Under the pieces are notes generated by a model, which was not told the origin of the DNA, did not search any database, and worked only from the letters and a program-made list of their open reading frames with translations. From Oceanispirochaeta crateris (GTDB lineage Bacteria; Spirochaetota; Spirochaetia; DSM-2461), in assembly GCF_008329965.1 (NCBI RefSeq), contig NZ_CP036150.1, positions 1,922,001 through 1,986,000 on the forward strand: a DNA stretch of 64,000 nucleotides, read 5' to 3'. The translations under genes and the position numbers were made by a program. This document shows positions 20,575 through 47,892 of the stretch, piece after piece; within the stretch, counting starts at the first letter, position 1; each line of letters starts with the position of its first letter.

Positions 20575-23500
20575 ATGATATTGAATATCTCCACCCTGAT
20601 TCCTGCAATGAGCTGTATTCTTTATATAGTCTTTACAGCATTTGGTCTTTATCAGGCTAGGAAAGATCAATTCCTGCACTCCTTCAATCTCTATATGCTG
20701 ATGATGACAGTATGGAGCTTCAGTTCCTTTATGATGCACGCCAATACGGGGATATACACCCCTTTGGTATGGAATAAAATCATGATGATTGGGATGCTGG
20801 GTGTTCCCATCACCATATTTCACGCCCTCCTTGATTTGACAAAATCCGGCAAGAAAAAGATTCATATATCTCTTTATCTGGGGTATGCAATCTATCTTAT
20901 CCTGCTCTACTTAAATATCACAGGAAGAATTGTTGAGAGGGCTTGGTTTGAAGGAAGCAGTTTCAATTACAAACTGGCAGACGGAGCCATTCTGGCCTAC
21001 TCTCTTAGTTATCTATTTCTTATTTTTGCTCTGATTCATCTCACTAAAGAAATACGAAAGGCAGAAAGCAAATCCCTCCAACTCAAACTGATGTATCCCA
21101 TCTTCGGGGTCATCATTCTACTGGTAAGTGTTCTTGTCAACCTATATGAGCCTATTGGAAAGTATCCCATTGATATTCTGGGAACAACGGTCAATGCCAT
21201 TCTTATTTTTTATTCCATCTACAACTACAAACTCATGAATTACTCATATTATGTTTTAAACGGCATTCTCTATTTCATCTTAGCCATGGCCAGCAGCGCC
21301 ATTTTCTATACAGTATTGTGGATTCTAACAATTTCACAGGAAATCTTCAAAATTCAATCGACTCTATCCATCTCTGTCATTCTGGGTGTATTGGCAGCTC
21401 TTATTTTTCAACCTGTTCGAAAAGGCTCTCTCTCCATCATCGAAAAACTCTACTTTGGGGATCGGTTTAGATCTTTTCAAGACTTAAAAAGCTTTTCAGA
21501 CAGCCTAAACTCAATCGTCGACTTAAATACCCTGGGAGAGCTGACAACGAAGAAAATCAGTGACTCCTACCAGTTGAACTGGTCGGCCATGCTCGTATTG
21601 GATTACAGCTCCAGAAACTTTCAGATATTCGGCTGGCAAGGCCTGGGTATCACCCTAAAGCAGAGCATACCTTTCAAACCTGAAGGAAAGCTTCCCATGG
21701 AAGAACTCATGTCAGAGAGAAGTCATAGTCTGATCGAACAGAAAATCTATCCTCCCTTGAGTTTCAAGATTTTCGACAAGTCCCTAACCCTCACCCCCAG
21801 CCTCATACTCCCACTCAAATTCAATACGAGAACCAACGGCTATTTACTCCTGGGAGAAAGTGAAGAGAGAGGGTTCTACAATCAAATGGAACTGGAGACC
21901 TTAGAAATCCTAAGCGGTCACTGCTCAGTATCCCTGGAGAATGCCATCACCTTTGAAAGGCTTAAAAATCAACAGCTCAGACTGCAGGACCTGAACCGAG
22001 AACTCACAGTAAGCCGGAATAAACTGGAAGCCTTCTTCGATGGAATCACCACACCCATTTCCATTCAGGATATAAATTACAACATTGTCATGGTGAATTT
22101 TGCAGCCACCAAATACTTCCAGACCAGTTATGACGAGCTGGTGGGAAAGAAATGCTATAGAGTTTTCTTTCAAAGAGAAAAGCCCTGTGAAAAATGTATG
22201 GCCCAGGACTGCCTTCACACCCAGCTGCCCTTTGCGGTCGAACAAAGGCGCGAACAGAACAATCAGATTTTTGATGTGCATTTTTATCCCATTGCTGTTC
22301 CGTCCGGAGAAGACAAACTGTTCCTCGAGTTCTTTTTAGATATAACCCAGCAGAAAAAGCTGCAGGCGGAGCTCATCCAATCTGAAAAACTGGCGGGAAT
22401 AGGAACTCTAGCCTCGGGCATCGCCCATGAAATAAACAATCCCCTGGGCGGAATATTAGGAACTGCCGAAATCATGAAGGAACTGCTGAAACCTGACACA
22501 CAGCTTTATGAATACACATCAGATATCATTCAGTATTCCGAAACAGCTGCATCGGTGATTAAAGACTTAACAAGCTATTCCAGAAAAGAGAAAGGAGAAA
22601 TTGGGCCAGTTGATATCAATATGATCCTAGACAGTGCGCTGCGTCTAGCTCAAAGGGGGATGGACTTTTCCAGGGTCATCATTGAGAAGGATATGGAAGA
22701 ACTCCCTGAAATTGAAGTAAACCAAAACGGTTTGCAACAGGTTTTTATGAACCTTATAGTCAATGCTGTTCAGTCCATGCCATCCGGTGGGACCCTCAGC
22801 ATCACAAGTAAAAAAACGTCCTACAGTGCCATGATCAGCATCAAAGATACGGGTATAGGAATAGAGAAAGAACATATGGATGATATTTTCGACCCCTTTT
22901 ATACAACAAAGGAACCGGGTAGAGGAACCGGACTGGGCTTGAGCATCACTCATCAGATCGTCACAGAAATGGGAGGAAGGATTCATATAAACAGCGAATA
23001 CAAACATGGAACTGAAATCCTGGTTTCTCTTCCCATGGAATCCAGTGATAAATCAAAGATTCGTTTTGTCAATGTGAAAGACCCCTCAGAGCGTGAAGAT
23101 GTCTTTTTTATTCAACGTAAGATTCTAGTTGGCGAAATGGGCTACAGAGAAGAAACGATCAGAAGAGAAATTGATGAGAAAGCCTACCATATTCTGGCCT
23201 ATAAGGGACTACAGCCTGTGGGAACTGTTTCCTGTATAACGACGCAAATGATAGATCACCTGCCCATAGAAGATCATTTTGAAATTAACCATTTGGTAGA
23301 AGGTAAAAGATGCGCCGAAATCGACAGACTAGCCGTTTTGAAAGAAGAGAGAGGCAGTATTATTCCCATGGGCCTCATGACTCTGGCCTACCTTTATGCC
23401 AGAATTGAAAAAACAGAGAGTCTCTTTCTGGATGTCTTTGCGGATGATCAGAAACAGGTTGGAATGTATTACAAATTAGGGTTCCAGAGAATCGGGCAAT

Positions 23501-23718
23501 ATTCGGACCCTTCTCCCGTGGAAGTCATGATCCTGGATCATAAAACTGAGTATGAGAGAAAGAAGCAGAGGATGGAACAATTTGTTAAACCATTGATGTC
23601 CAGGCTCGTTAAACTCCTTGATTTTGATAAAACAGCAGAAGAGAAGTTCTTGATAGCCGTAGATGAGCTTGTGACAACAGCTGGGGAAGAGGGAGGGCTG
23701 AAGAGCCCTCCGAAATGA
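20575..23718 (+). CDS. 7TM-GAF-PAS sensor histidine kinase fused to a GNAT/FeeM-like acyltransferase domain
   Basis: 1047 residues. Seven TM helices (about 1-240, histidine-kinase N-terminal 7TM type), a GAF-like domain (about 300-460), a PAS domain (about 475-590, with Cys residues in REKPCEKCMAQDC), HisKA with phospho-acceptor His618 (SGIAHEINNPLGG), and an HATPase (VNAVQSMPSGG, DTGIGI, DPFYTTKEPGRGTGLGL). From about 827 to the end is a GNAT-fold module resembling N-acyl amino acid synthase FeeM/LuxI-like domains: VGTVSCIT, EIDRLAVLKEERGS, and a distal YYKLGFQRIG. Such a domain on a kinase is unusual. AAAGGAAC lies 9 bases before the ATG. The stop is 2 bases from the convergent VIT1 gene. 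Confidence 0.88.
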   Translation: MILNISTLIPAMSCILYIVFTAFGLYQARKDQFLHSFNLYMLMMTVWSFSSFMMHANTGIYTPLVWNKIMMIGMLGVPITIFHALLDLTKSGKKKIHISLYLGYAIYLILLYLNITGRIVERAWFEGSSFNYKLADGAILAYSLSYLFLIFALIHLTKEIRKAESKSLQLKLMYPIFGVIILLVSVLVNLYEPIGKYPIDILGTTVNAILIFYSIYNYKLMNYSYYVLNGILYFILAMASSAIFYTVLWILTISQEIFKIQSTLSISVILGVLAALIFQPVRKGSLSIIEKLYFGDRFRSFQDLKSFSDSLNSIVDLNTLGELTTKKISDSYQLNWSAMLVLDYSSRNFQIFGWQGLGITLKQSIPFKPEGKLPMEELMSERSHSLIEQKIYPPLSFKIFDKSLTLTPSLILPLKFNTRTNGYLLLGESEERGFYNQMELETLEILSGHCSVSLENAITFERLKNQQLRLQDLNRELTVSRNKLEAFFDGITTPISIQDINYNIVMVNFAATKYFQTSYDELVGKKCYRVFFQREKPCEKCMAQDCLHTQLPFAVEQRREQNNQIFDVHFYPIAVPSGEDKLFLEFFLDITQQKKLQAELIQSEKLAGIGTLASGIAHEINNPLGGILGTAEIMKELLKPDTQLYEYTSDIIQYSETAASVIKDLTSYSRKEKGEIGPVDINMILDSALRLAQRGMDFSRVIIEKDMEELPEIEVNQNGLQQVFMNLIVNAVQSMPSGGTLSITSKKTSYSAMISIKDTGIGIEKEHMDDIFDPFYTTKEPGRGTGLGLSITHQIVTEMGGRIHINSEYKHGTEILVSLPMESSDKSKIRFVNVKDPSEREDVFFIQRKILVGEMGYREETIRREIDEKAYHILAYKGLQPVGTVSCITTQMIDHLPIEDHFEINHLVEGKRCAEIDRLAVLKEERGSIIPMGLMTLAYLYARIEKTESLFLDVFADDQKQVGMYYKLGFQRIGQYSDPSPVEVMILDHKTEYERKKQRMEQFVKPLMSRLVKLLDFDKTAEEKFLIAVDELVTTAGEEGGLKSPPK

Positions 23719-29831: not shown

Positions 29832-30869
29832 ATGGCCAAGAAGTTAGCCTTTACAAAACCAGTTCTACTAAAGCAGTCTGGTATTTTCACCTCACTTTTA
29901 ACCCATGAATTGAGAATCATTGCCAAAAACAGCGAATACAGGAATTACAGGGATGGAGAGCCGGTTTTTTTGACAGGTGAATCAGGAAACGCCCTCTATA
30001 TTGTTGAATCCGGAGAAGTTGTCATACAAAAACAGGACGAATACGGACCTGTTATTGATTTTGCCAGATTCATTGAAGGAAACTGCTTTGGTGAACTGGA
30101 TATGTTTACAGAAACAAAAAGAGAGGCTTCCGCTTATGCTTCAAGAGACACCCGGCTACTTGTCTTTCCCAAAGCAGGGACTCAATTTTCTGATCTTCTA
30201 AAGGAGCATCCCGAAATATCCGCACGGATACTTCATAAGATCCTCGTCAATATTGCCGTAAGAATCCGGGGAGCCAACTCGCTGATCAAAGAGAACTCAC
30301 CTCTCATGCAGGAGCTGAAAAAGCAGGTCTATAGAGACAAACTAACGGGAATTAATAACCACACATATTTAATGGAAAGGATAAGAAAACTCATCGGTGA
30401 CCGAAAAGGCTTTGCTCTCATCATTGTAAAACCTGATAATTTCAAGGAATTAAATGATAATTTCGGCCATGAAGCGGGTGATTCGGCCATAAAGGTCATG
30501 GCCAGAGGGCTGCGCGATTTCATTGGGGATGACAGCAGGACAGTTCGTTTCAAAGGCAATGCCATGGCGGTTCTCTGCGTCGGGTACAACAGGGAAGAAG
30601 CCTATAAAGTGGCTTTGGAAATTCGATTTTTTTTCAATCGTCTTGATGTGAAAGATGCTACGGGCGGGAAAGAGTTCACTCTGACCGCCAGCGTTGGTAT
30701 ATCACTTTATCCAGAACATGAAATTGAACCCGAAGCCCTTGTATTCACCACCCATGAACTGCCTCTATTAGGGCGTAGACGGGGGGGAATCTCATATTAT
30801 TCCCCGAAGACAATCAGGAATGCCAATGAAAGAAACCTCTGCCTTTCATTCCCACCAGGCGACGATTAA
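29832..30869 (+). CDS. cNMP-binding domain protein with degenerate GGDEF domain
   Basis: 345 residues. The N-terminal cyclic-nucleotide-binding (CRP-like beta-roll) domain covers about 10-140 (GEPVFLTGESGNALYIVESGEVVIQK, GNCFGELDMFTETKREASAYA). A GGDEF-fold domain (about 165-325) follows, beginning YRDKLTGINNHTYL with FGHEAGDSAIKVMA, but the catalytic GGDEF is replaced by FKGNAM and no RxxD inhibitory site is visible. It should not make c-di-GMP and probably acts as a nucleotide sensor or partner. The next gene is a paralogue starting inside its 3' end. Confidence 0.88.
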   Translation: MAKKLAFTKPVLLKQSGIFTSLLTHELRIIAKNSEYRNYRDGEPVFLTGESGNALYIVESGEVVIQKQDEYGPVIDFARFIEGNCFGELDMFTETKREASAYASRDTRLLVFPKAGTQFSDLLKEHPEISARILHKILVNIAVRIRGANSLIKENSPLMQELKKQVYRDKLTGINNHTYLMERIRKLIGDRKGFALIIVKPDNFKELNDNFGHEAGDSAIKVMARGLRDFIGDDSRTVRFKGNAMAVLCVGYNREEAYKVALEIRFFFNRLDVKDATGGKEFTLTASVGISLYPEHEIEPEALVFTTHELPLLGRRRGGISYYSPKTIRNANERNLCLSFPPGDD

Positions 30870-33015
30870 ACTGTTGCAATCCATTAAGATTCTCTCGAAA
30901 CTTTCTCCAAAGGATCTTCAAAACCTTTACTCCCATATGAACGAGGAGACCTTCCTAGAGGGGCAGCCTCTGTTTAATGAAGGAGATAAGGGAGAAGTCA
31001 TGTACATTGTACTCGCCGGTTCGGTGTCGATTTTGGTCAATACACCCAGTGGAGATCCCATAGAAATAGCGGAAATCAAGGAAGGGAACTTTCTGGGTGA
31101 AATGTCCATATTCGATAGCTCCGAAAGATCAGCCACCTGCACACCAAAGAGTGATACACGGGTTCTCAGCCTGAAATCTACAGATTTTTATGATTTCATC
31201 AAAACCAATCCGAAGGCAGGAATCTCCATCATGCATCGGATGCTTCATACGGTCACCCTCCGGTTAAAGCATACAGGAGCCTTTATTTCCGATATGGTCA
31301 CCTGGGGTGAGCAGGCTCGTGTGAGAGCCATTACAGATGATTTTACAGGTCTTTATAACAGACGCTTTCTGGATGAGGCCATAGAGGAAAGGCTGAACGA
31401 AGCCGGTGCATCGGGACAGCCCCTCTGTTTGGTTATGATAGATCTTGATCATTTTGGCACACTTAACAATCTTTATGGGCAGGAAACAGGAGATGAAGTC
31501 CTTCTGGAAGTCATAACCATCTTTAGGAAACTTTTCAGAAAAGAAGATATTCTCTCTCGGTACGGCGGGGATGAGTTTACATTTCTACTCCCGGGAACAA
31601 AGGGAGAAGAAGCACTGAAAATTTGTAAGGCTCTCAACGAGGAACTCAGAACAATAGAAACCCTCAGAGAGAAAGAAGGAAACCTTAAAACAGTCACGGC
31701 TAGCATAGGAATTGCCTGTTATCCAGACCATGGGCAGAACGCCGAGGACTTAAAGGAACATGCTGACAAGGCTCTATACAGGGCAAAAGAAGCAGGTAGG
31801 GATACAGTAAGGCTCTGGAATGATAAGGAGAGAAAGGTTTTGGCAAAAACAAAAATTACCAGAATCAAAGAGAGAAATCAGATCGTCAATAATATCTTAG
31901 ACGCGATTGTCCAAAGAGATTCATTTCTAATAATGGGTCATCAAACCCCGGATGAAGACTGTATTTCATCTATGATAGCCATGGGTCTTTTAATCAACAA
32001 ATTTGCAAAACCTGTCTATCTGCTGATACCCGGAAAAATCAATGAGAATTTTCAGTACCTGCTCAATATTTGTCGCTACAATGCCATTCAGATCCTTCCA
32101 AACACTGAGGCTCTGAAGGTCAACGTATCCACGGTCATACTCATGGATACTCCCAAACCTGATATGAGAGAGCTCTTCCCTGGTATGGAAGAGCTATACA
32201 GCGATACCAATATACTAAAAATTGAAATAGACCATCATTTAGAAGCCGACAGTGCTTATAGTGGTGACAAGGGGTACTGCTTTGTGGATGAAGCCTCATC
32301 GGCTAGTGAACTTGTCGGCATGATAGCCTTTAAACTGAGCAACCGGGAAGACATCTTCAACGACTTTAATATTCAGGAACTCTTTTCGCGAAACTTTGTT
32401 CTTGCCGTATTGACTGGTATCATTGGCGATTCAAAGATGGGAAAATACCTGAAAACAAGACGGGAAAAGTGGTTCTACAAACTCTTTAGTACCATGTTCA
32501 GTGAGATATTAGGTTCAATTACCCACAAAAACTCTAGCAATTTTTCCTCCATGGACGAAGTGTTTAACGGTTTACAGCAGCTCTCCAAACAGGAAGATGA
32601 ATGTTTTAATCTGATGATGAAACAGAAGGTTGAAATCTCACCCAAAATTGGGTCAGTAATCATAACAGAAGATGCCATAAAAAAAATGAGGGATAAGTAC
32701 GACCACGAAACCATTGTTACTGTGGCGAGGTACACTGCCGATTCTCTTGCAGAAACCAGTCGACTGCTGAGCCTGGTTGTCTATTATGACGATAAGAAAG
32801 ATTCCGACCTTATACAATTTCGAATCAGACGCAGTAAATCCTACAAGGATCTGGATTTGAGAAAGATTCTTGAAGAGAAGGAAATCAAAAATGGAGGCGG
32901 CCATCCTGGAGCCATTGGCTTCCGATTTCCAGCCTCCGAGGTCTCAGATTTAACTCAGTACGTCAAATCCCTGATTACCCTAATAGAAGAATTGATGGAA
33001 AATGCCGCCCCCTGA
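30826..33015 (+). CDS. cNMP-binding, GGDEF diguanylate cyclase and DHH-DHHA1 phosphoesterase fusion protein
   Basis: About 729 residues. Order: cNMP-binding domain (about 15-145), GGDEF (about 165-335) with an intact RYGGDEF and an RKED inhibitory (RxxD) site 5 residues before it, then a DHH phosphoesterase (about 365-730) with GHQTPDEDCISS, LMDTPKP, EIDHH and TGIIGDSK, ending in DHHA1 with NGGGHPGAIGFRF. All residues expected for catalysis in both enzyme domains are visible. GdpP has a degenerate GGDEF plus DHH; here the GGDEF looks active. I chose ATG 30826 because AGGA lies 6 bases before it; ATG 30820 touches that AGGA. Overlaps the preceding paralogue by 44 bases. Confidence 0.9.
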   Translation: MKETSAFHSHQATIKLLQSIKILSKLSPKDLQNLYSHMNEETFLEGQPLFNEGDKGEVMYIVLAGSVSILVNTPSGDPIEIAEIKEGNFLGEMSIFDSSERSATCTPKSDTRVLSLKSTDFYDFIKTNPKAGISIMHRMLHTVTLRLKHTGAFISDMVTWGEQARVRAITDDFTGLYNRRFLDEAIEERLNEAGASGQPLCLVMIDLDHFGTLNNLYGQETGDEVLLEVITIFRKLFRKEDILSRYGGDEFTFLLPGTKGEEALKICKALNEELRTIETLREKEGNLKTVTASIGIACYPDHGQNAEDLKEHADKALYRAKEAGRDTVRLWNDKERKVLAKTKITRIKERNQIVNNILDAIVQRDSFLIMGHQTPDEDCISSMIAMGLLINKFAKPVYLLIPGKINENFQYLLNICRYNAIQILPNTEALKVNVSTVILMDTPKPDMRELFPGMEELYSDTNILKIEIDHHLEADSAYSGDKGYCFVDEASSASELVGMIAFKLSNREDIFNDFNIQELFSRNFVLAVLTGIIGDSKMGKYLKTRREKWFYKLFSTMFSEILGSITHKNSSNFSSMDEVFNGLQQLSKQEDECFNLMMKQKVEISPKIGSVIITEDAIKKMRDKYDHETIVTVARYTADSLAETSRLLSLVVYYDDKKDSDLIQFRIRRSKSYKDLDLRKILEEKEIKNGGGHPGAIGFRFPASEVSDLTQYVKSLITLIEELMENAAP

Positions 33016-33126: not shown

Positions 33127-33171
33127 ATGACAAATGAGGGTGAACCACCTTACATGAAAATTGATTTATAG
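33127..33171 (+). CDS. 14-residue small ORF with strong ribosome binding site
   Basis: ATG to TAG encodes MTNEGEPPYMKIDL, preceded by a perfect AAGGAG 10 bases upstream. It contains a Pro-Pro pair, which can slow ribosomes. It lies inside the putative small transcript. Coding status rests only on the ribosome binding site and position. Confidence 0.35.
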   Translation: MTNEGEPPYMKIDL

Positions 33172-33223
33172 TATGAATAGGACTTCTATCCAATGGATAG
33201 AAAGTAGCATTTATTGAAATATA

Positions 33224-33259
33224 AAGCACAGATGAGACATCATCTGTGCTTTTTTTTTT
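33224..33259 (+). terminator. Strong rho-independent terminator
   Basis: 12-bp perfect stem AAGCACAGATGA/TCATCTGTGCTT with a GACA loop (33224-33251) and a T-run through 33259. It terminates the small transcript and any read-through from the DHH gene; it may also serve the convergent minus-strand gene. Confidence 0.92.
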
Positions 33260-41744: not shown

Positions 41745-42293
41745 TCAGTGAAGATCCTCATAGGACCTCAAGTAAAGAGATTCCGCCAGATGCTCGGCTC
41801 CCTTGAGAAGACGGACCATCAGAGGGATAAGAAAAATATGAAAATAGAAGACTCTTCTCATCCCATGGGGTATTTCGATCCCTCTGAGACGCTGTGCATC
41901 CTGAATTTCATCGATAACTGGTTTTATAAATAAAGTATAATTGAGAGCGCCATAGAGAATAAAGGCAATTTTTTTAGGAAAGCCCGTCTCCACGAGAAGG
42001 TCATAAAGAGACAGATCCTTGTAGAATGAGAGGTAAACTTGAAGGCTGAGACTGATGGAAGCGAGGAGTATTACAGTATGGATACCATCCTTAAAATGCC
42101 CGAATAAGAAGTATAAAATCAAAAGGAAAAGGGATGTGGGAACTAAAAAACGAAGGTATGATACCAGAGCCTTCCTGTTCCTCACAATCAGACCAGCGAT
42201 AATAAAGGGAATGAGCAGGAACCCACTTTTGGGGATGATAAGCTGAAGCCCCATAAGAACTATGGATAGAAGAAATAAGAGTTTAAATTTCAA
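41745..42293 (-). CDS. ecfT: ECF transporter transmembrane T component (EcfT)
   Basis: 182 residues with about five TM segments. The two coupling motifs of EcfT proteins are visible as AQRLRGIE and AESLYLRSY (AxxARG-like). Shorter than general EcfT (about 260), as expected for a dedicated group-I system. It overlaps the ATPase gene by 11 bases and completes a ThiW-EcfAA-EcfT importer. Confidence 0.88.
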   Translation of the reverse strand: MKFKLLFLLSIVLMGLQLIIPKSGFLLIPFIIAGLIVRNRKALVSYLRFLVPTSLFLLILYFLFGHFKDGIHTVILLASISLSLQVYLSFYKDLSLYDLLVETGFPKKIAFILYGALNYTLFIKPVIDEIQDAQRLRGIEIPHGMRRVFYFHIFLIPLMVRLLKGAEHLAESLYLRSYEDLH

Positions 42294-43611
42294 CAGAAGC
42301 TCCCTTAAGGCAGTAATCGGCGACGGAATGGGAAGAGTCCTTTAAAAATTCAACAAAGTCCCCGTTGTGACTGGTAAAGAGTATCCCCGTCCCTCTGTCC
42401 AGAAGCTTCTCAAAAACCTTCACTAATATTTTCACACCCTGTTCATCCAGATGTGCATCCGCTTCATCCAGAATCAGAACCTCCGGTTTTAACAATAGGG
42501 CAGCCACAAGCTGACATTTTTTCTTTTCTCCATGACTCAATGAAAATGGACTCTGATGCAGGGTATGCCCCAGTTCAAATATGTCACACAGAAACTGCAA
42601 ATACTCATCATCTTTTATCTTCAGAATTGAAGCAGAATAGGAAAGCTCTTCTTCTACGGTATTGCAGAAAAACTGGCTGTCTGGAGACTGAAGGACCACA
42701 GAAATCCTCTTGCAGAACTCCCGCCTCTTCAAGGACCGAAGATCTATGGTTCCAAGACGGAGATCTCCCCGGCTGGGTTGCAGGCAGGTGATGGCCCGGA
42801 TCAACGTGCTTTTTCCAGAACCAACGGGCCCTCTCAGATGAATGAGCCCCCCGGGGGGTAGAAATAAATCTTCAAAACAGAACCTGGGTCCCTGGGGGAG
42901 ATCCACAACCAAGCTCTGTATGGAGAGGAGGGAAGAGACTTCACTGGAAGGACCATTGTGTCCTTCGGGCATGGGAGGGAACTTGATCCCCTTGTTTCGT
43001 TTTTTTTCAGGATTCAGCACAAAGGAACGGACATATCCTGCCAGGGATGCAGGGAGGCTGTGTTCCACCATAAGGATGGTTTTTCCAAGTCTGTGTTTTT
43101 CAAGAAGAAGATCAGCCAATAACTCTCCCTTATCTGCGGATAAGGGAGCAAAGGATTCATCCAGAAGGATCAGATCAGGATCTGAGCTGAGGTAGGCACA
43201 GATCAGGACAAGCTGCTGCTCCCCTCCTGAGAGGCTCTGCGGGTTGCGGTCTTTCAGATGCTCAATCTCAAAATACTTCAATAAAGATTCAGCTCTTTCG
43301 CTCGAGGCGGAAGGAGAAAAACAAACCTCCTCCCATACGGTTCTGCAAAAGAGTCGGGCCGCTGCCCAGGGACCTGTAAGACAGAGATTCTTTCCACCTC
43401 CTTTAAGAGGTTCATTTTGATACAGAAGGGTTCCTTCAACGATACCCGGATATACTGATGGAACAAGCCCGGCTATGATCCGGAGTAAACTGGTTTTCCC
43501 CGCACCATTAGGTCCTCCCAGATAGAGGAAATCTCCCCGCTTGACTGTAAGATTCAGCCCAGTAAAGATTTCCCTCCTATTCTTAAATGACAGGTTCTGT
43601 ATGGATAACAT
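42283..43611 (-). CDS. Fused ECF transporter ATPase (two ABC domains)
   Basis: About 442 residues from ATG 43611 (GGAAAA 8 bases upstream; the frame opens at 43638). Two ABC domains in tandem: first GGPNGAGKTSL, LSGGEQQLVL, DLILLDESFAPL; second GPVGSGKSTL, LSHGEKKKCQL, EVLILDEADAHLD. This is the EcfA-EcfA' fusion found in YkoD-type systems. The second signature is LSHGE rather than LSGGE, a common variation. It powers uptake with ThiW as the substrate-binding S component. It overlaps the thiW stop by about 30 bases. Confidence 0.92.
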   Translation of the reverse strand: MLSIQNLSFKNRREIFTGLNLTVKRGDFLYLGGPNGAGKTSLLRIIAGLVPSVYPGIVEGTLLYQNEPLKGGGKNLCLTGPWAAARLFCRTVWEEVCFSPSASSERAESLLKYFEIEHLKDRNPQSLSGGEQQLVLICAYLSSDPDLILLDESFAPLSADKGELLADLLLEKHRLGKTILMVEHSLPASLAGYVRSFVLNPEKKRNKGIKFPPMPEGHNGPSSEVSSLLSIQSLVVDLPQGPRFCFEDLFLPPGGLIHLRGPVGSGKSTLIRAITCLQPSRGDLRLGTIDLRSLKRREFCKRISVVLQSPDSQFFCNTVEEELSYSASILKIKDDEYLQFLCDIFELGHTLHQSPFSLSHGEKKKCQLVAALLLKPEVLILDEADAHLDEQGVKILVKVFEKLLDRGTGILFTSHNGDFVEFLKDSSHSVADYCLKGASVEI

Positions 43612-44089
43612 GCGCTTTTTCCAATCTGAGAAGAACAATAAAAGCCAATAAACTACCGGAGATAGAACTGAGCAGGAAGCCAGGGAGCAGAGCCATAAAC
43701 CCGATTTCCTTCCCCATGATTCCAGGGGCTATGAGGAAGCTGCTTAAAAGTGGAGCAATCAGTCCTGTCCCAATGATTTCTCCTAGGACCGCTGCAGAGA
43801 TTTTTCTGGTCATTCGAAAGGCCAAACCAGACAAGAAGGCACCGATCATACTGCCCGGAAAAGCCAAAAGGGTTCCCAGACCCAGGGCATTGCGGATGAG
43901 AGAGACTCCTGCGGCAGCGGCCACATTCATTCGTGTCGTAACCAAAACAGCCAGAAAAACATTTACAAAATGCTGGGTCGGATTGATTTTGGCTATACCG
44001 ATGGGAAGACTTGTGAAAGGAGACAGGGCAATAGCCAGTGCCATAAAGACGATCACATGAGCGATTTGCTTAATATTTTTTTTGCTCAT
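43583..44089 (-). CDS. thiW: ECF transporter S component ThiW (thiazole precursor uptake)
   Basis: 168 residues with five to six TM segments. The ThiW signature INPTQHFVNVFLAVLV and the GxLLAFPGSMIGAFLSG segment are visible. ThiW is predicted from TPP-riboswitch regulons to import hydroxyethylthiazole; its place beside thiM, the kinase for that compound, fits. It overlaps thiE by 4 bases. Confidence 0.92.
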   Translation of the reverse strand: MSKKNIKQIAHVIVFMALAIALSPFTSLPIGIAKINPTQHFVNVFLAVLVTTRMNVAAAAGVSLIRNALGLGTLLAFPGSMIGAFLSGLAFRMTRKISAAVLGEIIGTGLIAPLLSSFLIAPGIMGKEIGFMALLPGFLLSSISGSLLAFIVLLRLEKAHVIHTEPVI

Positions 44090-44679
44090 CCTTCCTCCAG
44101 TTTTTTCAGGTACTCCTGAATCCGTAACTCCGGCTCATCCCTGCCCATGATATCGGAAATAACGCAGATGTAGGATGCTCCGGCCTGCATGACCTCATCC
44201 AGATTTTCGAGTGTAATACCACCGATGGCACTGACCGGAACAGAAACACTGCGGCAGATCTCTTTAAGAAGGGGAACTCCCATATGGGGTGCCTCCGGTT
44301 TTGTCAATGAACCGAAAACGGCTCCAGCCCCAATGGAATGAGCGCCCGCTTGTTCGGCTTCTATCGCCTCCTGGACAGTATCAACAGAAACACCAATCAT
44401 GAGTTTTTGTGCATATTGTTTACAAATACTCTTATAATCACCATCATCCTGTCCCAGATGAACCCCATGGGCCGCCGATTCCAGAGCCGCCTCCAGACTG
44501 TCATTCACAATAATTTGGACATGAGGATAACTATGGGAGTGGGTCATGATTTTTTTCACTGTGGAAACCAGGCTGTCATGATCCTGACCTTTATTTCGAT
44601 ATTGAATGACCGAGACACCTGCGGCCATCAGCATTTGAGCTTCTTCCAGATTTGATGCAAAACCGTATAATTCAGCCAT
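44086..44679 (-). CDS. thiE: Thiamine phosphate synthase
   Basis: 197 residues, (beta/alpha)8 barrel. Joins HMP pyrophosphate and thiazole phosphate to thiamine monophosphate. Motifs: IQYRNK, IIVNDSLEAA, GVHLGQDDGD, GAGAVFGSLTK and the phosphate loop AIGGITLENLDEVMQAGAS. It overlaps the symporter gene by 8 bases. Confidence 0.95.
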   Translation of the reverse strand: MAELYGFASNLEEAQMLMAAGVSVIQYRNKGQDHDSLVSTVKKIMTHSHSYPHVQIIVNDSLEAALESAAHGVHLGQDDGDYKSICKQYAQKLMIGVSVDTVQEAIEAEQAGAHSIGAGAVFGSLTKPEAPHMGVPLLKEICRSVSVPVSAIGGITLENLDEVMQAGASYICVISDIMGRDEPELRIQEYLKKLEEG

Positions 44680-46066
44680 TTTTATTTTTCCTTAATCCTG
44701 CAAAAACAGAGATGATGGCGGCACTTGAAAGAGCCAGAAGAAATGAAATAAACATATCCGCTGGCAAACCGGACCAGGAACTGAAATCGGGTCCAGGGAA
44801 AAATGGGGCTCCCAGAATGATAGCCGTAAAACCGGCCAGCATGGACTGTCCTCCACTTATATTCTTATTGAAAAGGCCGTATAAAAGCGGAAAGGCAAAG
44901 GCGGAGCAGATCAAGTCGGCCAGCAGGAATAAGTAGAGAACCGACCCTCCCCGGCTACCGAAAAAGACAGCGATGCTGCCAATAAGAACTGTCAAAAATT
45001 GGGCTCTGAGCAACTGATGAGGACTTTCTTTTTCAATCCCCTTCCAGGAAACAATGGTACTGACAATACCATTTAAGAGGGTATCGATGCTGCTGAGAAC
45101 AAGCAGAAAGGCCAAAAGTACTAAGATGACCGTAAAAAGAGGAGAAAGCAGGGAGAGCAGGCTGAACACGGCCAAAGAGGGTTCTGCAGGATTCAATGTC
45201 CCAGCGCTACGGGCAAAGATTCCAAAAAATCCTGCTAGAAGAACGAGGGGGATGATGATAATTCCACCCAGCAAAAAGGCATTTTTCTGAGATTGGTTCT
45301 CTTTTACCGTATAGATCCTCTGCCAGAATCCCTGATGAAAGAGATTGCTGCAGGTGACTCCTAGAAACAGAACAATTCCGAATTTCCATCCGGGGATAAA
45401 GGTAAAGGAGAGAAGCTCCGGCGCAGCCGCATGAATCTGATCTCCCAGAGACCCGTTCTTCATAGAAAGTTCGTATACTACAGCTGTAGCAAGAGCTAAA
45501 AGAAGTGGCACCAGCACATAAAGCTGGATTTTGTCTGTTTTTATAGAAGCACCCAACCCACCTCTAAACACATAGGCAAAGACCAGAAGCATAATGAGAC
45601 TGCAGCTGATCAAAAGAGGAATACGAAAGGCGAATTCCATGACCTGTCCGATGGCTGTCAGTTCGGCACTTAAAAAAGTCCCCATGTAGAACAGCATGAT
45701 AATGCTGGCCATAAAGGCTGTTTTTCTTCCATACCGAGAGGCAATATAGTCACTAAATCCATACCCCCGGGGGAGGAGATTAAGCAGGACCGGACCGAAA
45801 AAAGCCAGTAAGAAAAGCGGCATGGCCTGCCCGAAGGCATACCCGATCAGTCCACTGATTCCCGCCCAGGTTCCGGTCTCCGCCGGACTGAACAGAATCC
45901 ATCCACCCAGCACCGAAGCTGCCAGACTAAAACCCGCCACAAGGGAGCTGCTCTTACCTCTATGGGTAATATAGTCATCCAGAGTCTCCGGTTTCCCCTT
46001 AAAACCCATGATCACAAATAAAGAACTCAGGAGGGCCATCCCCCCCAGGCTTGCTGTTAAAATCAT
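44672..46066 (-). CDS. Sodium:solute symporter, candidate thiamine-precursor (HMP) transporter
   Basis: 464 residues with about 13 TM segments and the SSS-family layout (FSLAASVLGGWILFSPAETGTWAGISGLIGYAFGQA, and SSIDTLLNGIVSTIVSW in TM8). It lies between thiD and thiE in a TPP-riboswitch operon. An SSS protein (ThiV) has been predicted as a hydroxymethylpyrimidine transporter in other thiamine regulons, so HMP is a reasonable but unproven substrate; together with ThiW this would supply both thiamine halves. Confidence 0.87.
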   Translation of the reverse strand: MILTASLGGMALLSSLFVIMGFKGKPETLDDYITHRGKSSSLVAGFSLAASVLGGWILFSPAETGTWAGISGLIGYAFGQAMPLFLLAFFGPVLLNLLPRGYGFSDYIASRYGRKTAFMASIIMLFYMGTFLSAELTAIGQVMEFAFRIPLLISCSLIMLLVFAYVFRGGLGASIKTDKIQLYVLVPLLLALATAVVYELSMKNGSLGDQIHAAAPELLSFTFIPGWKFGIVLFLGVTCSNLFHQGFWQRIYTVKENQSQKNAFLLGGIIIIPLVLLAGFFGIFARSAGTLNPAEPSLAVFSLLSLLSPLFTVILVLLAFLLVLSSIDTLLNGIVSTIVSWKGIEKESPHQLLRAQFLTVLIGSIAVFFGSRGGSVLYLFLLADLICSAFAFPLLYGLFNKNISGGQSMLAGFTAIILGAPFFPGPDFSSWSGLPADMFISFLLALSSAAIISVFAGLRKNKNG

Positions 46067-46069
46067 TGT

Positions 46070-46897
46070 CTATCTCCTTATACTTTTTTTAAGATTCCAC
46101 ATGTGATTGACCGGCCCGCGTCCCTGCCCCCAGGACTGATTTTTGCCATGTTCCAACGCGGCACTGATATACTTTTTAGACAGAGAAACGGCTTCATCCA
46201 GGGAGTATCCCAGTGCAAGATGAGATGCGACAGCAGAGCTCAGAGTACAGCCAGTGCCATGGGTATTCCTTGTCTCGACTCTCTCCGATTCAAACCACAG
46301 CAAACGATCTGATCCGGGAACAGCCAAGACATCCGAAGAGGTCCCGCAACCCTGAAGATCCCCACCCTTCACGAGAAAGGGAGAGCCCCATTTGTGGGCC
46401 ATTGCCAGGGCGGATTCTCCCATTGTCTCTTTCGAGCTGTTCTTCTTTCCGCTGATAAGATCGATTTCATGAATATTGGGGGTGATCAGGGAAGCCAGAG
46501 GAAAAAGGAGTGTTTGCAACGATTGTAGAGAATCGGGTTCCAAAAGAACATCACCGCTTGTTGCAACCATTACGGGATCCAAGACAATCCTGACATTTCT
46601 GTCTTTTAAAAAGTGATAAAGCCCCTCGATAAGAGCTTGATCGTGGAGCATGCCGATCTTGACCGTTACAGGAGGAATATCCTCAAAAACAGCATTCAAC
46701 TGCGCCAGAACTACCTCGGTCGACACTGGATACACTCCCTGAACACCCTGAGTATTCTGTGCGGTCAAAGCCGTAATAACTGTCATGCCGTAACAGCCAA
46801 GGGAAGTCATCGTTTTTAGATCTGCCTGAACTCCTGCCCCACCGGAGGAGTCGCTTCCCGCAATAGTCAGAACAGCGGGATGGAGAAAATGAGTCAA
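46070..46897 (-). CDS. thiD: Hydroxymethylpyrimidine/phosphomethylpyrimidine kinase
   Basis: 275 residues, ribokinase fold. Phosphorylates HMP twice to HMP-PP. Motifs: TIAGSDSSGGAGVQADLKT, VKIGMLHD, VLDPVMVATSGD and NTHGTGCTLSSAVASHLALG. It overlaps thiM by 4 bases. Confidence 0.96.
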   Translation of the reverse strand: MTHFLHPAVLTIAGSDSSGGAGVQADLKTMTSLGCYGMTVITALTAQNTQGVQGVYPVSTEVVLAQLNAVFEDIPPVTVKIGMLHDQALIEGLYHFLKDRNVRIVLDPVMVATSGDVLLEPDSLQSLQTLLFPLASLITPNIHEIDLISGKKNSSKETMGESALAMAHKWGSPFLVKGGDLQGCGTSSDVLAVPGSDRLLWFESERVETRNTHGTGCTLSSAVASHLALGYSLDEAVSLSKKYISAALEHGKNQSWGQGRGPVNHMWNLKKSIRR

Positions 46898-47709
46898 AAT
46901 AGAACCTCCTGATCATTTGATTCTTCTGTGATGTTATATATTTGATCGATGAATTTTAATTTGAAATCCGCCGGCCCATTAATCTCTGTGATGCGACTGG
47001 AGCATTCGGACATGAAAGAACAAACTCCGGCGGCGGCATCTGCCGAAAAGTCATGAGTATGGAACTCAGAACAGCAGGATAGAAAGGCCGCCATCAGGGC
47101 CGAACTGACACATCCGAATCCGCTGATCCGGGACATGAGGGCATGCCCTCCCCGGAGGATAGAACTGGACTGTCCTAGGATGTAATTTTCTGGACCGCTG
47201 ATACACAGGGCGGATGCAAATGAGCGAAGTCCCCGGGTTATACCGGCAACGTCTTCTGCGTTATGGATGCTGTCGATGCTACCGCCATGGCTTTTTCCGT
47301 CGGCTAAACAGTATATCTCCGAAGCGTTGCCCCTGATGATTCTGGGGACAAGATTATCAGGATCTTCTTCTTTGAGAATTGATAAAAGTTGGAAGGCAAT
47401 ATCCTGCCTTAACGGGGAGCTTCCCACACCGGGAAAGTCCAGGACCAGGGGGATTTTATTCCTTAAAGCACTCCTCAAAGAAAGGTTGTAACTCTCCTGG
47501 ATATGCCTGTGAGGCGTCCCGGTATTGATGCACAACCCGTCAGACTGGATGGTCACGCCAGCGGTTTCCCGGGCATCAAAGGCCATAATCGGTTTACAGC
47601 CCAGTGCCAGCAGAGCATCAGCAACGAAAAGGTTGGTCACATTATTCATCAAAACATGAATAATTGGTCTAGACTGGTTAATCGCTTTTAAAAAGGTTTT
47701 ATACACCAT
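46894..47709 (-). CDS. thiM: Hydroxyethylthiazole kinase
   Basis: 271 residues. Phosphorylates hydroxyethylthiazole for thiamine salvage. Motifs: HVLMNNVTNLFVADALLALGCKPIMA, VLDFPGVGSSPLR and IIRGNASEI. The catalytic region corresponding to GTGC in typical ThiM is GFGCVSSALMAAF here, a Thr-to-Phe change at a conserved position. Start ATG 47709; a GTG one codon later has better spacing from GGAG. First gene after the TPP riboswitch. No thiC, thiG or thiH is present, so the operon is salvage-only. Confidence 0.92.
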   Translation of the reverse strand: MVYKTFLKAINQSRPIIHVLMNNVTNLFVADALLALGCKPIMAFDARETAGVTIQSDGLCINTGTPHRHIQESYNLSLRSALRNKIPLVLDFPGVGSSPLRQDIAFQLLSILKEEDPDNLVPRIIRGNASEIYCLADGKSHGGSIDSIHNAEDVAGITRGLRSFASALCISGPENYILGQSSSILRGGHALMSRISGFGCVSSALMAAFLSCCSEFHTHDFSADAAAGVCSFMSECSSRITEINGPADFKLKFIDQIYNITEESNDQEVLF

Positions 47710-47802
47710 GGTCTCCAGTCATCAGGAGGAGTTTACCGGCGTATGTTCAGACACGTTCTTCCCGAAAGCGGGAAATCACAGACTTGAAAAGAAGGGTTCC
47801 GA

Positions 47803-47884
47803 CGCATACTTCCTTCGCTGTTATTACACAGATCAGGTTCAAAGGGTTTGATCTCAGCCTGTATTTTACAAGCACCCCTGATGA
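47803..47884 (-). promoter_or_regulatory. TPP riboswitch (thi-box)
   Basis: On the minus strand the thi-box elements appear in order: CAGGGGTGC, GCTGAGATCAAACCC, TTTGAACCTGATC, GTAATAACAGCGAAGGAA. This is the conserved core of the thiamine pyrophosphate aptamer. Downstream are a TTCCCG/CGGGAA hairpin (47759-47774) and CTCC/GGAG pairing around the thiM ribosome binding site, suggesting control at translation start rather than by a classic terminator. Confidence 0.96.
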
Positions 47885-47892
47885 ATGATTAA

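Follow-up and report, generated by a model that had tools for sequence, protein, structure and literature searches.

The window (the whole 64 000-nucleotide stretch of DNA that was analysed) contains a gene for a 729-residue protein in which a cyclic-mononucleotide (cNMP)-binding domain, a GGDEF domain and a DHH-DHHA1 unit are joined in a single chain. We propose, with a probability of roughly 0.55, that the product is a diguanylate cyclase gated by a cyclic mononucleotide and combined with a metal-dependent dinucleotide phosphodiesterase, and that it is paired with a catalytically dead paralogue encoded just upstream. Its parts correspond to three spirochaete gene families, which often lie in one cluster: A (cNMP-binding with a variant GGDEF), B (cNMP-binding with an intact GGDEF) and C (DHH-DHHA1); the gene described here is a fusion of B and C. 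GGDEF and DHH-DHHA1 appear to have been joined a second time, in another phylum and with the GGDEF motif intact, and the join has been gained or lost several times. The natural fused and split versions make the question of what a GGDEF domain does for a DHH enzyme testable.

Gene layout and domain composition

The sequence-only reading had placed cNMP-binding, GGDEF and DHH-DHHA1 domains in one protein, and this was borne out by a single open reading frame, by Pfam and by the fold of the model. The frame on the plus strand runs from 30820 or 30826 to 33015 (731 or 729 residues, respectively), and the ATG at 30826 is the better start because it is preceded by AGGA at 30816–30819, 6 nt upstream. 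The features of the region, in window coordinates, are as follows.

29832..30869, plus strand: gene A, cNMP-binding and GGDEF domains (Pfam), with Lys at the metal Asp position and KGNAM in place of GGDEF
30826..33015, plus strand: fused gene B+C, cNMP-binding, GGDEF, DHH and DHHA1 domains, 729 residues (open reading frame, Pfam, ten relatives, no long hydrophobic stretch)
30946..31209, plus strand: cNMP-binding domain with the phosphate-binding cassette FLGEMSIFDSSERSAT (PF00027, E = 3.6e-19)
31327..31803, plus strand: GGDEF domain of the ordinary diguanylate-cyclase type (PF00990, E = 5.5e-46)
31537..31548, plus strand: RKED, the RxxD I-site, five residues upstream of GGDEF (read directly)
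31564..31578, plus strand: GGDEF active-site motif (read directly)
31924..32418, plus strand: DHH domain (PF01368, E = 2.9e-11)
31939–31959, plus strand: motif I of the DHH domain, H-PDED
32146–32148, plus strand: motif II Asp of the DHH domain
32230–32238, plus strand: the DHH motif itself
32428–32430, plus strand: motif IV Asp, just past the end of the Pfam DHH match
32731..32976, plus strand: DHHA1 domain (PF02272, E = 3.7e-5; fold of the model)
32893–32904, plus strand: GGGH of the DHHA1 domain
33223..33252, plus strand: likely terminator, a 13-bp stem with a T run after it (consensus scan, a lead only)

Within the 729-residue protein the Pfam matches span residues 43–130 (cNMP_binding), 170–328 (GGDEF), 369–533 (DHH) and 638–719 (DHHA1). 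The first three score above their cut-offs; DHHA1 falls slightly below (24.6 versus 25.9 bits), yet the DHH-DHHA1 fold is confirmed by the AlphaFold model and a fold search. No transmembrane helices were found in the 729-residue protein (the highest 19-residue mean hydropathy is 1.5, within the DHH core), which is predicted to be soluble.

Genes A and B+C overlap by 44 nt, and A had gone unmentioned in the sequence-only reading. A promoter scan returned no more sites than were found in shuffled sequences, and Rfam placed no c-di-GMP or c-di-AMP riboswitch ahead of the operon; its sole match in the window, a TPP riboswitch (RF00059) at 47792–47889 on the minus strand, lies upstream of a run of minus-strand genes (41745–47709) with the appearance of thiamine salvage and transport genes. 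A tiny open reading frame of 14 codons (MTNEGEPPYMKIDL; 33128–33172, plus strand) with a strong AAGGAG ahead of it lies between the fused gene and the terminator. Elsewhere in the window, 20575–23718 (plus strand) encodes a 1047-residue protein that, by eye, seems to join a membrane sensor and histidine kinase to a putative acetyltransferase-like region with an additional tail.

The predicted cyclase part and its upstream paralogue

The residue set of a diguanylate cyclase is complete in the fused protein: GG[DE]EF, the metal Asp, the guanine-site Asn and Asp and the triphosphate-site Lys and Arg, with positions numbered after PleD. Among 27 family B relatives, GGDEF, the metal Asp, the guanine-site Asn and both triphosphate-site residues are each invariant (27/27). 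The guanine-site Asp is replaced once, by Asn (26/27), and its retention argues against a promiscuous Hypr-type domain. GGDEF and RxxD had both been described as intact; both are present here, but only the former is constant across the family, the I-site being the most variable of the claimed features (R in 21/27, D in 26/27; altered or lost in six of the 27). The phosphate-binding cassette is similarly well kept (G 27/27, E 26/27, R-S-A 27/27) and carries the GE and R-S/T-A signature of CRP-like domains that bind cAMP or cGMP. Judged from these alignments, the motif conservation is far beyond chance. In a structural comparison, the GGDEF domain taken from the full-length model aligned with active diguanylate cyclases at a Z score of about 22; the arrangement of the domains in that model is unreliable (pTM 0.49). 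Unfused family B proteins, the stand-alone cNMP-GGDEF proteins of spirochaetes, have the same domains as the fused protein, an intact active site and about 40–45% identity to it; they differ in lacking the DHH part within the chain, although the DHH gene often comes directly after them.

Ten close relatives of the fused gene, all from spirochaete metagenome assemblies, were collected in one contig scan, and in every one the next gene upstream is a cNMP-GGDEF paralogue (cut short in L002 by the end of the contig). In family A the metal Asp is Lys in all 21 relatives; the GGDEF motif reads RGDEF in six and is degenerate (KGNAM, GNEL and similar) in the other fifteen, with Asn at the third position in 15/21. 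The guanine-site Asn and Asp are kept, and the cNMP Arg is missing from seven sequences. A KPDNFK motif is also conserved in the family. By these substitutions, family A is predicted to be a spirochaete pseudo-cyclase family in its own right, with a dead GGDEF domain. Since A and B share gene clusters, the decay of A serves as an internal control for B: A is degenerate whereas B is intact, which argues that the GGDEF residues of family B are held by selection.

The DHH-DHHA1 family and its distribution

Family C (∼390 residues) has the motif I–IV ligands, the GGGH motif and the fold of the DHH-DHHA1 superfamily (NrnA/TmPDE/DhhP type). The metal ligands are intact in all 59 relatives apart from one D-to-E change at motif IV (D in 58/59), and on the DHHA1 side GGGH, QFR and R are each present in 59/59, so the earlier statement that all of the DHH motifs are present extends to the family. 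Decay of either site in homologues, which would have counted against two working enzymes, was not seen. With both active sites retained throughout the phylum, it is plausible that the protein makes one dinucleotide and degrades another, as had been suggested.

The DHH part, modelled with AlphaFold2 (mean pLDDT 82), matches NrnA, TmPDE, GdpP, Rv2837c and Borrelia DhhP with Z scores of 19–22, values too close to assign C on structure to NrnA, TmPDE, GdpP or DhhP. The best PDB sequence match to the C profile is TmPDE (E = 1.4e-11), and the best solved relatives are TmPDE, whose structure includes pApA, and NrnA. While C shares its fold and metal ligands with these stand-alone phosphodiesterases, it differs from DhhP, TmPDE and NrnA in its own signatures, LTGIIGDxxMGxYLKS-R (motif IV) and NGGGHxGAIGFR. 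In a quick tree with long branches, C forms a separate clade on a long stem (length 5.5), apart from the DhhP orthologue and the NrnA-like paralogue of the same genome, and all C sequences are grouped together by a branch at 99, outside the DhhP orthologue group. The best full-length identity to DHH paralogues of its own genome is about 22%. C may be a previously undescribed DHH subfamily, and it is so strongly diverged that its sequence does not reveal what it cuts.

The distribution of C was surveyed in 393 Spirochaetota genomes, with a second search using a DHH-family profile. Strong matches were found in 59 genomes and distant ones in 7–8 more (66/393 positive overall); searches of plasmids gave no match. 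The search for homologues with this domain architecture, which the sequence-only reading had put forward as a check, divides the 59 distinct C sequences into 15 that are fused to B, 12 that come right after a separate B and 32 without an adjoining B, most relatives in these counts being from metagenome assemblies. On a quick tree with long branches, the fused state changes at least four times on well-supported branches; the tree does not separate fusion from fission. In two of the ten close relatives (L008 and L009) the cNMP-GGDEF and DHH parts are cleanly divided between two genes that lie in different frames. This repeated fusion or splitting is the main evidence that B and C act together, as they probably do.

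C also appears to have a job that needs no cyclase, since 32/59 sequences have no adjoining B and a 1.1-Mb genome (G056), which its size and group suggest to be Treponema-like, contains C without a B match. The only three DHH proteins of that genome are a RecJ-sized one, DhhP and C; its retention of C alongside DhhP argues that C does something beyond the role of DhhP.

The neighbours of stand-alone C were considered as a clue to the substrate and set aside, as they point to no nucleotide pathway: QueH occurs in Treponema-like and some other loci, and another group has a TPR-containing SpoIIE-type phosphatase. The queuosine gene queH directly follows C in L079, L082 and L085, where Pfam confirmed QueH, and probably in other Treponema-like loci; some loci show a 4-nt overlap of start and stop codons.

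In the genome itself (4.01 Mb, one contig), searches gave 10 DHH, 2 DAC, 41 GGDEF, 12 EAL and 8 class III nucleotide cyclase matches. A DhhP orthologue is encoded elsewhere (39% identity to its counterparts in two Treponema-like genomes; E = 7e-45 against Borrelia DhhP), as is an NrnA/TmPDE-like protein. A further DHH-DHHA1 protein (L094, 2317–3288, minus strand) is highly diverged and belongs to no clear subfamily. The second DAC (L100, 2000–3379; about 2.794–2.795 Mb) has a PTS EIIA-2 domain before a divergent DAC domain, and a GGDEF match at 482693–483080 of the contig contains three in-frame stops, possibly marking a decayed cyclase gene.

Proposed function and comparison with known systems

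In the proposed mechanism, the N-terminal CRP-like domain would bind cAMP or cGMP, and the signal would pass through the following helix to control dimerization of the GGDEF domain. The GGDEF domain, predicted to be competent, would then make c-di-GMP from GTP, and the C-terminal DHH-DHHA1 unit would act as an Mn2+-type phosphodiesterase cutting a dinucleotide, which may be linear (pGpG, pApA or short RNA) or c-di-AMP. Protein A, translated just before the fused protein, would probably regulate the cyclase by pairing with it. It is likely that both enzyme activities are present in the one protein. The fuller version, in which both enzymes are live and a single cNMP signal raises c-di-GMP and lowers another dinucleotide under the control of the dead paralogue, is more tentative, and we would place it somewhat short of even odds.

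A GGDEF domain with intact motifs need not be an active cyclase, since some such domains serve as receptors. An alternative along the lines of GdpP is therefore that the GGDEF domain senses GTP or c-di-GMP and controls the DHH part, its cyclase activity being negligible in the cell. The order GGDEF-DHH-DHHA1 is that of GdpP, C has repeatedly been fused to B, and the guanine-site Asn and Asp kept in the dead A would make nucleotide sensing at home in this operon. The upstream domains of GdpP dampen hydrolysis, and there is no settled view of what its degenerate GGDEF is for (PMC10243994). A pure sensor should nevertheless drift, as A has done, whereas the catalytic residues are conserved in both fused and unfused B, and we regard this alternative as improbable.

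Two other proposals concern what the DHH part cuts, and each can be combined with the reading of the protein as a gated cyclase and phosphodiesterase. The DHH part could be chiefly a housekeeping nanoRNase or a pGpG/pApA hydrolase, its fusion to a cyclase allowing local clearing of the linear dinucleotide left by c-di-GMP breakdown. None of 12 spirochaete genomes gave an Orn match, with control genomes positive, and the subfamily, which is kept in Treponema-like genomes including the one of 1.1 Mb, where it stands beside only the RecJ-sized protein and the DhhP orthologue, could fill part of this gap. TmPDE and NrnA as the nearest solved relatives point the same way, and an NrnA-like enzyme specific for pGpG has been reported in Vibrio cholerae (PMC12709177). 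Against this, the other NrnA/TmPDE/DhhP-type proteins of the genome could do the same, and most of the phylum genomes sampled lack C; we rate the proposal a little under an even chance. The DHH part might instead be a c-di-AMP phosphodiesterase, in which case cAMP or cGMP would prompt the protein both to make c-di-GMP and to degrade c-di-AMP; a link between c-di-GMP and c-di-AMP had been offered by the sequence-only reading. Motif II (DTPKP) and ASSxxELV do resemble the GdpP catalytic domain, and all C-bearing genomes tested but one have DAC. Co-occurrence was rejected as evidence, however, since DAC is equally present without C (35/36 spirochaetes tested, with and without C; 41/42 of a set of mostly C-bearing genomes); the one C-bearing genome without a DAC match, G122, is a draft whose close relatives have DAC. 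The existing DhhP orthologue also weighs against a c-di-AMP role, for which we find no specific support and which we consider doubtful. Given the DhhP orthologue and the lack of Orn, a linear dinucleotide (pGpG or pApA) is slightly, and weakly, favoured over c-di-AMP as the substrate of C.

GdpP is the textbook case of a GGDEF domain joined to DHH-DHHA1. GdpP (YybT) is a c-di-AMP phosphodiesterase with two N-terminal transmembrane helices followed by PAS, degenerate GGDEF, DHH and DHHA1 domains. The fused protein resembles it in having GGDEF followed by DHH-DHHA1 in a single chain with all of the DHH and DHHA1 motifs present, in the DTxKP and ASSxxELV motifs seen in the alignment and in the fold of the catalytic domain (Z about 19–20). 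It differs in having a cNMP domain in front, no transmembrane helices and no PAS match in Pfam; in a GGDEF that is intact (27/27) and of the ordinary type, the GdpP-specific family PF24898 (GGDEF_GdpP) matching only at E = 0.017 and 15.8 bits against a 30-bit cut-off; and in that B and C occur as separate adjoining genes in other spirochaetes. The comparison with GdpP made earlier therefore holds for domain order and the DTxKP-like motif and fails for the type of GGDEF and the separability of B and C, and identity with GdpP was rejected on these differences. Judging from its distribution, the GGDEF-DHH-DHHA1 order is most simply explained as a second, independent join within the spirochaetes.

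We found no description of a cNMP-GGDEF-DHH protein in open-access papers. A parallel to its N-terminal part is Bd1971 of Bdellovibrio, in which a cNMP domain is joined to EAL in a c-di-GMP phosphodiesterase that is switched on by cAMP or cGMP (PMC6717892). The two proteins have in common a CRP-like N-terminal domain placed to gate a c-di-GMP enzyme, the gating being only proposed here. They differ in their catalytic part, EAL in Bd1971 and GGDEF plus DHH in the spirochaete protein, and in that Bd1971 hydrolyses c-di-GMP whereas the spirochaete protein is predicted to make it. Bd1971 provides a precedent for gating by a cyclic mononucleotide.
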